DNA from: Halopenitus persicus
GTDB lineage: Archaea > Halobacteriota > Halobacteria > Halobacteriales > Haloferacaceae
Assembly (NCBI RefSeq): GCF_002355635.1
Contig: NZ_AP017558.1
Coordinates: 1,302,001-1,366,000, forward strand
DNA length: 64,000 bases
Direction: 5' to 3'
Part shown: one piece after another, positions 39,209-56,779 of the stretch
Layout: each line of letters begins with the position of its first letter
Numbering within the stretch: the first letter of the stretch is position 1
Notes under the pieces: model-generated
Seen by the model: the letters and a program-made list of their open reading frames with translations, nothing else
Told to the model about the DNA's origin: nothing
The model's database searches: none
Position numbers and translations under genes: made by a program

Positions 39209-40270
39209 TCAGTACGAGGCAGCCCGTTTGTCGAGCCCTGCGGCCTGGATGTCCTCGCCGTCGACGGAGGTCCGCAGCTCGTCCATCCCGTCGAAGCGGT
39301 CGATCCCGAAGTTCTCGGCGTATAACTCCTGGACGTGCTCGTACTCGTCTGCGGAGAGCGAGGGCACGTCGCTGGCCGCCGCCCACTCGTCGATGTCGTC
39401 GGTCGTCCGGAAGGTGGGGGTCACCGAGGCGACCTCGTCGTGGAAGAGCAGCCACCGGATGGCGGCCTGGCTCATCGTCCGCTCGCCGTCACGCTCGAGG
39501 AACCGGATCGCCTCCAGCTTCTCCCAGCCGGTCTCGTACCACTCGTCCGGGCGGTAGGACCGATGGTCGCCCTCTCCGAGTTCCGTCTCCGGCGTGACCT
39601 GCTCGTTGAGCAGCCCCGAGGAGTGGGGCACGCGCGCGAGGACCGACGTGGCGGCGTCAATCTCGCGGATCGTCTCGATGAAGTGCATGCCGGGCTCCTG
39701 CTCGAACAGGTTGAACACCGTCTGCACCGCGTCGAAAACCTCGTACTCGGCGGCCGCGTCGCCCTCCGCCAGCCACCCGATCGACGGGCCGAGCGCCCAG
39801 CCGATCGACTCGGCACGGCCGTCGGCCTTGAACTCGCGGAGCACCTCGAGCACCTCCGGCGTCACCTCCTCGACGTTGGCGTTGTGCAGCTGGAGGAACT
39901 CCACGTGGTCGGTCCCGAGTCGGTCGAGCGACTTGTCGAATGCCTCCCGGAGATACTCGGGGGTGAGCTCCTTGGGGAGCTCGCCGTGACCGGCCTGCGG
40001 ATTGTTGTAGAAGTCGTAGCCGATCTTCGTCGCGAGCGTCACCTCCTCGCGGTGCTCGCCGAGCGCGCGGCCGAGGAGCTCCTCGGAGTTCCCGTGGCCG
40101 TAGACGTCGCCGGTGTCGAAGTAGGTGATCCCGCGATCGAGGGCGTGTTGGACCATCTCGACCGCCTGGTCCTCGGTGCGGTCGCCCCACCAATCGGTCC
40201 CGATGACCCAGGCGCCGAAGCCGATCTCGCTCACTGCAACCCCGGAGTTCCCGAGCTCGCGGTCGTGCAT
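39209..40270 (-). CDS. Aldo/keto reductase
   Basis: A 353-residue NADP-dependent reductase of the aldo/keto reductase fold. Catalytic residues: D52 and Y57 (FDTGDVYGHG), K82 (LATKIGYD) and the His in EFLQLHNAN near 124. Substrate unknown; similar haloarchaeal enzymes act on sugars or aldehydes. The ATG at 40270 (MHDRELGNSG) fits the family. It is divergent from the acetyltransferase. Confidence 0.92.
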   Translation of the reverse strand: MHDRELGNSGVAVSEIGFGAWVIGTDWWGDRTEDQAVEMVQHALDRGITYFDTGDVYGHGNSEELLGRALGEHREEVTLATKIGYDFYNNPQAGHGELPKELTPEYLREAFDKSLDRLGTDHVEFLQLHNANVEEVTPEVLEVLREFKADGRAESIGWALGPSIGWLAEGDAAAEYEVFDAVQTVFNLFEQEPGMHFIETIREIDAATSVLARVPHSSGLLNEQVTPETELGEGDHRSYRPDEWYETGWEKLEAIRFLERDGERTMSQAAIRWLLFHDEVASVTPTFRTTDDIDEWAAASDVPSLSADEYEHVQELYAENFGIDRFDGMDELRTSVDGEDIQAAGLDKRAASY

Positions 40271-40443
40271 ACGTTCGCGTTGGGGATCGCCCCACTTAGC
40301 GCGTGTGGTTCGGCCGTCCGACCGGGGCGATCGCCCGAAGGGTCGTCGACCGATCGGGACGCCGCAGAACGCGCTCCGAGCGCGGGAAAGCGACGATGTC
40401 GCACAACCGAATCCCTTTGTGGATCGCCGGTCAACGGCCACCG

Positions 40444-41355
40444 ATGACAAAGCGACACGTGTCCCTCCCCGACGACGCGGAGGCGGGAGTTCAGGCGTTC
40501 ATCGACGAGGTGGACGACCGGCTCTCCTCGTCGGAGGACACCTGCGACGTCGTTCGAGACGTCCTGATCGACCTCCACGGGGACCGCGAGGCGTGGGACG
40601 CCTGGCAGGCGGGCGCGGACGTCTCGCGGGCCGAGCGGGTACGGCTCCAGAGCTACGACCCGTGTAACGCGACGCTCGAGTCCGAGTACTACGCCGAAAA
40701 GGACGAGGAGGCCTTCAAGCGCTCGAAATACCTCCAATGGCTCTGGCGGCAGTTCGACGCGACGCCGATGGCCGACAACATCCACTTCGCGCTCCGGTTC
40801 CGGCAGATGCTCGGACGTCACCTCTTTGCGGACTGCGGGGAGAACTGCCGGTTCTTCAAGGGCATCTCGTTCACCTACGGTCACAACATCGAGATCGGCG
40901 ACAACGTCGTGGTCCACGACGACGTCCACCTCGACGACCGCGGGAAGCTGACGATCGGGGATCGCGTCTCCATCTCCGACGGCGCCCACATCTACAGCCA
41001 CGACCACGACATCGTCGACCAGACGTCGATCCGGAACTTCCACACGATCGTCGAGGACGACGCCCGCGTCACCTACGACTCGATGGTGCGTGCCGGCTGT
41101 CGGATCGGCGAGAACAGCGTCGTCGGTGCGCGGGCGGTCGTGCAGGGCGACGTGCCGGACCACCACGTCGTCGTCGGCATGCCCGCACAGAGCATCCGCG
41201 TGAAACCCGGCTGGGAGTCGGTCGCGGCTGAGATCGACGACGGACGGCTCGAGAACAACCAGGATGCACGGGAGATTCCCGCCGAAATTCCGGACGACAT
41301 CGAGCAGTTCGACGAGTTCGAGCGCGGCCTCACGCGTCCGGAGGCCGAGGAGTAA
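40444..41355 (+). CDS. Hexapeptide-repeat acyltransferase
   Basis: A 303-residue transferase of the left-handed beta-helix (LbH) family. The repeats run from about 135 to 240 (GHNIEIGDNVVVHDDVHLDD, LTIGDRVSISDGAHIYSHDHDI, GCRIGENSVVGARAVVQGDVP), with the catalytic His in SHDHD. An N-terminal helical part of about 130 residues is unusual for simple acetyltransferases. Likely acceptors are sugars or amino acids; none can be named. A CCCTTTGTGG box is about 30 bases before the ATG. Confidence 0.85.
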   Translation: MTKRHVSLPDDAEAGVQAFIDEVDDRLSSSEDTCDVVRDVLIDLHGDREAWDAWQAGADVSRAERVRLQSYDPCNATLESEYYAEKDEEAFKRSKYLQWLWRQFDATPMADNIHFALRFRQMLGRHLFADCGENCRFFKGISFTYGHNIEIGDNVVVHDDVHLDDRGKLTIGDRVSISDGAHIYSHDHDIVDQTSIRNFHTIVEDDARVTYDSMVRAGCRIGENSVVGARAVVQGDVPDHHVVVGMPAQSIRVKPGWESVAAEIDDGRLENNQDAREIPAEIPDDIEQFDEFERGLTRPEAEE

Positions 41356-41490
41356 CTGGTCGAGACGACCACACCCGAACCGGCTGATGACGGAGTGCCG
41401 AGGTCCGAACATCGCGCTGGCGAAAAGCGGAACGCGACCACTGAGAGAGGTACAATCCCCCCGGCGATGTTTCTCACGACGTTCGAAGAA

Positions 41491-41555
41491 TGCGCCGTCC
41501 GGGAGTCCCGTGAGCGAAGCGAACGGGACGTCGGACGGCGCACGACCGCAGGGAG
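41491..41555 (-). repeat. Foldback copies of the tRNA-Gly 3' end
   Basis: Directly after the tRNA (reading the minus strand) come a 13-base spacer (41543-41555), an inverted copy of the last 11 tRNA bases (41532-41542), a second stem (41523-41528 with 41506-41511) around the loop GAGCGAAGCGA (41512-41522), and a direct copy of the last 14 tRNA bases (41491-41504). The inverted and direct copies pair perfectly over 11 bases. It could also act as a terminator. The same design follows tRNA-Leu. Confidence 0.9.
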
Positions 41556-41626
41556 TGCGCCGTCCGGGAATTGAACCCGGGCTATTAGCTTGGGAAGCTA
41601 ATGTCCTACCACTGGACCAACGGCGC
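41556..41626 (-). tRNA. tRNA-Gly (anticodon CCC)
   Basis: A 71-base cloverleaf with no intron. Acceptor GCGCCGT pairs with ACGGCGC, the D stem is GTCC/GGAC, the anticodon stem is TTAGC/GCTAA around TTCCCAA (anticodon CCC), and the T stem is CCGGG/CCCGG around TTCAATT. The discriminator is A and no CCA is encoded. A TATA-like GTTCAAGTA lies about 31 bases upstream. Confidence 0.95.
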
Positions 41627-41652
41627 GTGCACGACGACGTTTCCGTCGGGCG

Positions 41653-41661
41653 TACTTGAAC
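41653..41661 (-). promoter_or_regulatory. Likely TATA box of tRNA-Gly
   Basis: GTTCAAGTA on the minus strand is centred about 31 bases upstream of the tRNA 5' end, the usual distance for haloarchaeal tRNA promoters. Confidence 0.5.
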
Positions 41662-41776
41662 GTAGCGCTTCACGGCGATCGACCGCCGGCACCCGGAGGC
41701 CAGTCGGCCCGCAGTCGGGGATCGGTCCCGCTGGACGCCTCCGGTTCGGCCCGCGGGATACACGTTCGGCGTCCCG

Positions 41777-42736
41777 TCAGGATCGACGCACGCTCGACGC
41801 CCCTGAACCAACCCGACGACGGAGCGCGTCGGTCGCTGCAGCAGCGTGACGGGCGTTCGTGTGTTCTTCGCCGAAGGCGGTACACGCGCTCGCGACGGCT
41901 TCCGGATCGGACTCGAACGTGATGGGCCCCTCCGTTCGGTCGACGGCATCGGGGGCGTCACGTGGAGCGTACTCGACGTCCCAAAGCACCAGCGGCGTCG
42001 GTGGTGCCGGACCGATCCCGTCGGGACCGGACGCCGGCTCGGGGGCGAGCAGGCGATCGATCCGCGAAATCGGGGCGTCCCCGGTTCCGATCGCGCGGAC
42101 GAGCGTGACGAGCCGCCTGACGAACTCGCGCGGAAAGCCGTCCGCGCTGACCTCGATGACGAGCAGGTCGCCGTCGCGGTCGGCTTTCGTCGCGACCGTC
42201 CGCACCGTCCCCGTCTCGTCCGGCGTCAGGTTGTGGAAATCGTGTTCGCCGGCGAGCCGAGCGAGCGCCGTCCGGACGCGGTCGTCGTCGACGAGGGGGG
42301 CGACCGCGGGCGGCTCCGAAGCGACGCCGGCACCGGTTGACCCGTCACCAGTTAGTCCCGGATCGGTCGGGGCGTACAGGTGATAGCGGTAGGTTCGGCG
42401 GGTCGCGTCGTGGGTCGCGTGGAAACCGTCCGGAACGTCGGCCGCGGCCCAGACCCGCACCTGCTTGGGGAGCTGCCCGTTGAACGCCCGAGGGGTGAGC
42501 CAGTCGGGAGCCTCGAAGGCGATCGTCTGGGCGGCCGCGGACACTCCGGCGTCGGTTCGACCCGCAGCGGCGTAGCCCGTCGGACGTGGGCGGCGGCCCG
42601 ACGGACCGCGCGGGAGGTCGGCGACGCCGAGGTCATCGAGCGCATCGAAGAGCACGTCCTCGACGGTGGGCACGTCGGGCTGTCGCTGGAAGCCGGAGAA
42701 GGGCCGACCGTCGTAGGCGATGCGAAACGCGCGCAC
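41777..42736 (-). CDS. truA: tRNA pseudouridine(38-40) synthase TruA
   Basis: A 319-residue enzyme that makes pseudouridine at positions 38-40 of tRNA. The catalytic Asp is D62 in AAAGRTDAGVSA. Other blocks: RIAYDGRPFSGFQRQP at the start, RRTYRYHLY and GEHDFHNLT, then DGFPREFVRRLVTLVRAIG. Haloarchaeal members carry the extended acidic linkers seen here. GTG at 42736 is the first start after the UspA stop (7 bases), so the two genes are one transcript. Confidence 0.93.
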   Translation of the reverse strand: MRAFRIAYDGRPFSGFQRQPDVPTVEDVLFDALDDLGVADLPRGPSGRRPRPTGYAAAGRTDAGVSAAAQTIAFEAPDWLTPRAFNGQLPKQVRVWAAADVPDGFHATHDATRRTYRYHLYAPTDPGLTGDGSTGAGVASEPPAVAPLVDDDRVRTALARLAGEHDFHNLTPDETGTVRTVATKADRDGDLLVIEVSADGFPREFVRRLVTLVRAIGTGDAPISRIDRLLAPEPASGPDGIGPAPPTPLVLWDVEYAPRDAPDAVDRTEGPITFESDPEAVASACTAFGEEHTNARHAAAATDALRRRVGSGASSVRRS

Positions 42737-56436: not shown

Positions 56437-56521
56437 GCGGGGGTGGCTGAGCCTGGCCAAAAGCGGCGGACTTAAGATCCGCTCCCGTAGGGGTTCGAGG
56501 GTTCAAATCCCTTCTCCCGCA
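56437..56521 (+). tRNA. tRNA-Leu (anticodon TAA)
   Basis: An 85-base class II tRNA without intron. Acceptor GCGGGGG pairs with CTCCCGC, the anticodon stem is GCGGA/TCCGC around CTTAAGA (anticodon TAA), the variable arm is TCCCGTAGGGGTTC and the T stem GAGGG/CCCTT encloses TTCAAAT. The discriminator is A and no CCA is encoded. Its 3' end is repeated downstream. Confidence 0.96.
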
Positions 56522-56779
56522 TCCACGGCGCGAGCAGCGGCGCGAGCGCCGTGGGTAGCTGAAGGATTTGAACGAGGGAAGTCGCAGCGCCGAGCGGAGC
56601 GAGGCGATCGTCTTCCCGGGGTTCAAATCCCTTCTCCCGCATCCACGGCGCGAACAGGTCGTGAGCGGCACGTCTCGGCGGGGGTTTGAACGAGGCCGGT
56701 CGCGCGCAGCGACGCGAGCACGTCCGGACGTCGTTCAAATCCCGTCTCCCGCATCCACGGCGCGAACAGGTCGTGAGCG
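56499..56779 (+). repeat. tRNA-Leu 3'-end array: alternating direct and inverted copies
   Basis: Direct copies of the tRNA 3' end and its flank sit at 56499-56533 (the tRNA itself), 56619-56653 (35 bases identical, exactly 120 downstream) and 56733-56779 (one mismatch in the tRNA part). Between them are inverted pieces: GCGCCGTGG at 56546-56554, GGATTTGAAC at 56564-56573 and TTTGAACGA at 56685-56693. Spacer loops hold GAGC(G/A)-AGCGA-type sequence. No complete second tRNA can be folded. It occupies most of the 361-base gap before larC. Confidence 0.95.

Follow-up and report, generated by a model that had tools for sequence, protein, structure and literature searches.

Hairpin-joined inverted and direct copies of tRNA 3' ends behind haloarchaeal tRNA genes

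Why is the end of a tRNA gene found a second time shortly behind that gene, with an inverted copy of it in between? This question is raised by tRNA-Gly(CCC) in a 64-kb stretch (the window) of the 3.1-Mb genome of Halopenitus persicus. Read on the minus strand, TCCCGGACGGCGCA, which comprises nt 60-73 of the tRNA (41569-41556), occurs again 65 bp downstream, at 41504-41491. Between the two lie an inverted copy of 11 bases and a loop, and both the coordinates and the numbers of an earlier sequence-only reading of this locus were right. The tRNA gene is bounded by 41555-41626 according to ARAGORN and by 41556-41626 according to Rfam; its discriminator base A73 is at 41556. The resulting unit has the order D-h1-I-h2-D, i.e. 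the resident tRNA end, a spacer, an inverted copy, a conserved hairpin core, and a direct copy. The parts of this unit and of its neighbours are listed in Table 1.

Table 1. Features of the two tRNA-associated arrays in the window.
Feature	Position	Strand	Basis and remarks
tRNA-Gly(CCC), resident tRNA	41556..41626	minus	ARAGORN and Rfam; nt 60-73 at 41569-41556
h1, spacer CTCCCTGCGGTCG	41543..41555	minus	Sequence; plus strand holds GA-CC-GCA-GG-GA
I, inverted copy of tRNA-Gly nt 63-73, TGCGCCGTCCG	41532..41542	minus	Repeat search
h2, 27-nt hairpin core, loop TTCGCTTCGCTC	41505..41531	minus	Fold; loop on plus strand GAGCGAAGCGA, 41512-41522
D, direct copy of tRNA-Gly nt 60-73, TCCCGGACGGCGCA, without CCA	41491..41504	minus	Repeat search
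Decayed type I unit, no direct copy left	41430..41490	minus	Comparison with sister-species locus L054
tRNA-Leu(TAA), resident of the second array	56437..56521	plus	ARAGORN and Rfam
Type I unit 1 after tRNA-Leu	56522..56641	plus	R2 match 56564-56641, 64.7 bits; sequence
Type I unit 2 after tRNA-Leu	56642..56753	plus	R2 match 56682-56753, 76.7 bits

Two covariance models were used, R1 for type II units and R2 for type I units. R1 matches the Gly unit at 41491-41546 with 82.5 bits. The unit folds with -41.7 kcal/mol as RNA (z -4.8) and with -28.3 as DNA of the plus strand (z -4.6); in both cases none of 200 shuffles was as low. The start of its spacer, CTCCCTGCGGTCG, recurs at several other tRNA-Gly genes. 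In the decayed unit behind it, an h1-like TTCTTCGAACGTCGTGAGAAACATCGCC, a remnant of the inverted arm (GGGGATTGTACC) and a remnant of the core (AGTGGTCGC) are left. Two long open reading frames, 41264-41659 (plus strand) and 40231-41961 (minus strand), cross the Gly unit and read motifs such as SIPGRRTPCGRAPSDVPFASLTGLPDGAF; like strings occur at locus L082. Such arrays are a source of spurious haloarchaeal ORFs.

A second array follows tRNA-Leu(TAA). In its first unit, h1 comprises 56522-56563, I starts at 56564, the loop GAGCGGAGCGA is located at 56592-56602, and D extends to 56641; the flank TCCACGGCGCGAACAGGTCGTGAGCG is present once more behind the second unit. Compared to the Gly unit, the copies begin at a tRNA position 7-8 nt upstream, and the loop motif is on the tRNA strand instead of the opposite strand. 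The sequence-only reading had assigned the same design to both loci. This needs a correction: the two are related but differ in architecture, the Leu array being of type I and the Gly unit of type II. The shared part exceeds the loop: it is a core conserved throughout the order, with covarying stems.

The direct copy of type I units is identical to the tRNA over 21-24 nt, mostly from nt 52/53 to nt 73; their inverted copy spans the T-loop and the T-stem and often also the acceptor end. Type II units have a direct copy of 13-15 nt, from nt 59-61 to nt 73; their inverted copy pairs with the acceptor end, and a hairpin of about 27 nt usually comes next. The first base of D is nt 52/53 in 69 of the 95 type I units and nt 59-61 in 35 of the 36 type II units, and these two start points coincide with both edges of the 7-nt T-loop. 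The T-loop is the most conserved stretch among tRNAs, and the left boundaries could partly reflect homology and not cleavage. The right edge is not fixed, as the direct repeat extends past nt 73 into the flank in 15 of 95 type I units. Across all units, the length of the duplication varies (13-15, 21-24, up to 47 nt). The units are 65-130 bp long and contain no genes, and both types alternate in several arrays.

Units were found at 17 of the 59 tRNA genes of this genome, some of them two or three in tandem. Within the 64-kb window, the loop motif alone is unremarkable, since GAGCGAAGCGA has four matches at up to one mismatch versus 4.8 expected. Of its 17 exact copies in the genome, 10 follow the 3' end of a tRNA at a distance of up to about 400 nt, where 0.13 would be expected (p about 1e-17); the same holds for four of the five copies of GTGAGCGNAGCGAAC. 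For the sequence-only reading, a motif equally common away from tRNA 3' copies would have been a refutation; given this strong enrichment, its claim survived. With R2, type I units were detected in 56 genomes out of the 60 that represent the same order (haloarchaea), whereas about 236 genomes from the rest of the phylum had no match. Of the 24 nearest genomes, 20 were matched by R1 and 19 by R2. The genome itself is placed among haloarchaea by these order-level searches and by plasmid matches to Natronorubrum and Natrinema. Strong matches of the models are almost all located behind tRNAs, and most apparent orphans had tRNAs that ARAGORN had missed, several of them with introns. A match of R1 at position 1150 of the own genome lies inside a coding sequence and was discarded as due to chance. 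A chance origin of the units is ruled out by the genome-wide enrichment and the covariance models; the units are haloarchaea-specific and non-coding.

The number of units differs at 14 of about 36 comparable tRNAs between this genome and two congeners. For example, a congener has a clean empty site at tRNA 2076763, where nt 73 runs straight into the flank that is found here behind the direct copy; the repeat at this locus is 15 nt. At 466002, the unit is absent in both congeners, and the direct repeat is 47 nt here, of which 25 nt are flank. Units are quickly inserted or lost as a whole directly behind the discriminator base, and an individual difference may reflect either gain or loss.

Several further loci of this and related genomes are of note. 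The own tRNA 2583878 and the congener locus L223 have a type I unit in common; in the congener, the direct copy switches to another 3' end, CTCCCATCCCA, with unrelated DNA behind it, as would result from the integration of an element at the copy. A tRNA-Pro-like gene at L094 (own genome, about 1528179), with the anticodon region CTTCGGGTGG and the T-loop ATTCGAATT, is missing from the Rfam genome search; its array contains, among others, a copy that starts at the anticodon arm, with hairpins set inside the T-arm. At L082, L083 and L092, integrated elements of several kb separate tRNA-Gly from the array, with repeats that start near the anticodon loop; the integrase ORF of L082 looks frameshifted. 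Dense, low-scoring divergent tRNA genes, perhaps virus- or plasmid-borne, are present at C1:1153325-1154999 of the own genome and at C16:55753-58049 of G001. Tandem repeats of GCGAGCGCAGCGAACACCCTCCCCGTCTC with the same loop motif are located away from tRNAs at L093 (own genome, 1475210-1475280), and about seven tandem copies of TTCCCTCGAGCGACCGTCGGCCA are found in the 3' flank of the own tRNA-Leu at 2071864.

The relation between arms and resident tRNA was analysed for 131 distinct units with identified tRNA (95 of type I and 36 of type II), which belong to about 20 tRNA species. Over its last 12 nt, the direct copy has at most one mismatch to the resident in 85 of 95 type I and 35 of 36 type II units. 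For tRNAs of other isotypes, the corresponding fraction is 0.0009 (type I) and 0 (type II), with a mean of 5.9 mismatches. With 120 of 131 direct copies this close to the adjacent tRNA, the proposal of the sequence-only reading that something copies the neighbouring tRNA end is supported. The inverted arm of type I tracks the T-loop variants of the resident at nt 57 (71/4/1/16, p 2.5e-13) and at nt 59/60 (70/1/0/16, p 1.4e-16); these p-values are optimistic because many units stem from related genomes, but the effect is nearly exceptionless over about 20 tRNA species. For type II, the best 8-nt inverted match has on average 0.8 mismatches to the copy of the same unit versus 2.7 for other isotypes. 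Where D and the resident disagree in the T-loop, the inverted arm sides with the resident in nine of 11 cases and with D in one, which is a weak signal as several D arms were parsed one base out of register. The arms are derived from the adjacent tRNA. An origin of the inverted arm from the 5' acceptor strand was rejected, because the arm at tRNA 1618103 is CGTCCTGAC, the perfect reverse complement of the 3' end, and not GTCCTGG. Reverse transcription of mature tRNA was likewise rejected: the copies contain no CCA, so that the copying takes place at the DNA level.

The cores behave differently from the arms. Their median similarity is 0.58 both for pairs from the same genome but different tRNAs and for pairs from different genera but the same tRNA. 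Core similarity is independent of the tRNA, and of the genome beyond the genus, and the cores look as if they had been shuffled between tRNAs and genomes. The second unit of tRNA-Leu 495439 is chimeric, with a tRNA-Val-like inverted arm and core and a Leu direct copy.

The stems of the hairpins covary. In the type II seed alignment, the covariation is 0.368 versus 0.140 in shuffles. It is 0.476 versus 0.153 for 41 distinct type II matches and 0.323 versus 0.131 for 109 distinct type I matches; these two alignments were fitted to the model and are hence biased towards it, and the signal is lost if the partners are slid by 1-3 columns. In none of the three comparisons did any of 500 shuffles reach the observed value. 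Whereas the stems vary freely, unpaired features are kept, namely a T.T mismatch (in 54 of 94 type I sequences), the GA loop, and the internal CAG/AC loops.

Loop motif and mismatches indicate which strand folds. The motif is on the tRNA strand in 48 of 95 type I units and on the opposite strand in four; for type II, it is on the opposite strand in 32 of 36 units and on the tRNA strand in none. In stem 2 of type I, read on the tRNA strand, 64 G.A mismatches are opposed to two T.C. The free stems of type II contain 17 A.C versus three G.T in the same reading, i.e. wobbles of the opposite strand, and the mismatches tolerated in type II (C.A, T.C) are wobbles and G.A pairs if the opposite strand is read. 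In both types, the GA-NN-NNN-N'N'-GA loop is on the same strand as the folding strand deduced from the mismatches. Type I thus bears the marks of single-strand folding of the tRNA strand, and type II those of the opposite strand. Folding as RNA would require an antisense transcript for type II, and single-stranded DNA is therefore favoured.

The best explanation, which we adopt tentatively and at somewhat less than even chances, is that strands are broken or exchanged at the edges of the T-loop and that fold-back copying then produces the units. The candidate enzyme would act at the T-loop edges of tRNA genes, and a haloarchaeal tyrosine recombinase of the tRNA-integrase type would be most plausible. 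Enzymes of this kind make two cuts 6-8 nt apart. At the end left by the break, a mini-hairpin (GA-NN-GNA-NN-GA) would fold. DNA synthesis starting there would copy the resident tRNA end backwards to generate I, and would then return to the template at the T-loop edge and copy forwards to generate D. Template exchange would re-use existing cores and spread h2 between tRNAs, and local copying would fit the arms to the new resident. Fold-back priming at breaks is known to yield templated inverted insertions of 5-34 bp (PMC11724301), and the inverted copy of the units is likewise one of DNA directly adjoining the presumed break. Tyrosine integrases are known to cleave 7-nt tRNA loops at their borders, and some of their haloarchaeal families occur only in Halobacteria (PMC8371274). 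Pure fold-back synthesis leaves the order-wide conservation of h2 unexplained; the cores must be copied from other arrays or selected. Further points against this reading are the attP of six haloviruses that have such integrases, which lack the hairpin, the longer repeats used by integrated elements beside arrays, and the variable right edge of the direct repeat. It is also conceivable, and we hold this with more reserve, that an active, hitherto undescribed strand-specific system repeatedly writes backward and forward copies of the local tRNA end, joined by a recognised single-strand hairpin, at both T-loop edges, and in this way builds CRISPR-like arrays.

The strongest rival, although rather unlikely in our estimation, regards the hairpins as folded single-strand recombination sites resembling integron attC. 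A haloarchaeal recombinase would recognise unpaired bases of the folded strand and exchange this strand with the tRNA at the T-loop edge, and the units would be tiny gene-less cassettes. Strand-specific folding, variable stems next to constant unpaired features, tandem arrays that gain and lose units, cores common to different tRNAs, and the exchange point G|TT are all in line with such sites. However, the short units lack genes, no unit-specific integrase is known, the attC core GTTRRRY is not found, and the arms follow the target, whereas attC arms travel with the cassette. It is improbable that the units are attR scars of integrative elements (proviruses or plasmids) whose body was deleted. 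The usual att sites are indeed tRNA 3' ends, of which the units contain a direct repeat; the SNJ2 integrase att, 14 nt at the tRNA 3' end (PMC8371274), is as long as the type II copies; and integrated elements lie between tRNA and array at three loci. But among the type I loci retrieved, nearly all apparent orphans had a tRNA just upstream, and L195 is the one candidate for the right-hand end of a larger element; the attP of six haloviruses with such integrases contained no hairpin when R2 was applied to the whole record and R1 around the integrase. Furthermore, none of 37 viral contigs that match the core pattern (IMG/VR) has an inverted copy. On these grounds, and as blastn gave no phage match, a viral attP origin was rejected. 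The type II sequence pattern had no match in viral contigs, and the integrated elements beside arrays use longer repeats, starting at the anticodon arm.

We give just as little credit to a mobile hairpin that a transposase or Cas1-like enzyme inserts with target-site duplication, its inverted arm being corrected later. The precise empty site with its 15-nt repeat is as expected for such an event, and casposons, too, duplicate 14-15 bp when they integrate at the 3' end of a tRNA (PMC6614799); yet the duplications of the units vary in length, the casposon duplication starts about 8 bp behind TCAAATC, near nt 70 and not at nt 52 or 60, fixed terminal repeats are absent, and the inverted arm already matches the resident almost without exception. 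Least probable of all is that the units are RNA elements under selection in the tRNA trailer, with a role in processing or termination or as decoys. The conserved, covarying structure would be compatible with it, but most tRNAs have no unit, sister species lose units freely, the strand that folds in type II is the antisense one, and the transcript strand has no excess of G-U pairs.

The units suggest that tRNA genes undergo a DNA-copying or recombination process that has so far gone unrecognised. If cuts at both T-loop edges are indeed involved, the arrays would preserve the traces of past integrase reactions that were aborted, and would allow one to ask directly how tRNA genes persist although elements constantly integrate into them. 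In practical terms, the arrays complicate annotation, through spurious ORFs and false tRNA fragments, and provide a strain marker that evolves fast.

A description of the units was not found in the literature searched, which covered the field in part. Within this partial coverage, target-written arms around a shared core match no known repeat class. To our knowledge, a shared core with arms that are always rewritten to the resident gene is unlike known transposable or palindromic repeats. REP and MITE families consist of one sequence, whereas the units share unpaired core features only and differ in stems and arms. Integron attC sites are folded in a strand-specific manner, with variable stems, conserved unpaired bases and tandem arrays. 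The units resemble them in that one strand folds and unpaired bases are conserved; they differ in lacking genes, in arms copied from the target, and in a T-loop that reads GTTCRAA and not G|TTRRRY. The SMRs and PATEs of Haloquadratum are also haloarchaeal non-coding inverted-repeat elements of about 100 bp, are targeted to palindromes, and are mobilised in an unknown manner (PMC3119063). They have a fixed sequence and no target duplication, in contrast to unit arms, which follow the target tRNA. Casposons share the tRNA 3' end as a target and a duplication of 14-15 bp, but are large and gene-bearing, with fixed terminal repeats and a duplication offset by about 10 nt (PMC6614799); the duplication of the units starts at nt 52/53 or 59-61 and ends at nt 73, and unit ends differ between tRNAs. 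The att sites of SNJ2-type and other tRNA integrases of Halobacteria are likewise located at tRNA 3' ends, with identity blocks that are 14 nt long or bounded by the T-loop (PMC8371274). The viral attP examined have a direct copy only, from the anticodon arm onward, without inverted copy or hairpin, whereas the units have both. Fold-back insertions in yeast are similar in that a local inverted copy of 5-34 bp is made by fold-back synthesis (PMC11724301). However, those are single random events, whereas the units have a fixed place at tRNA 3' ends and a core, and their inverted and direct copies are made repeatedly.
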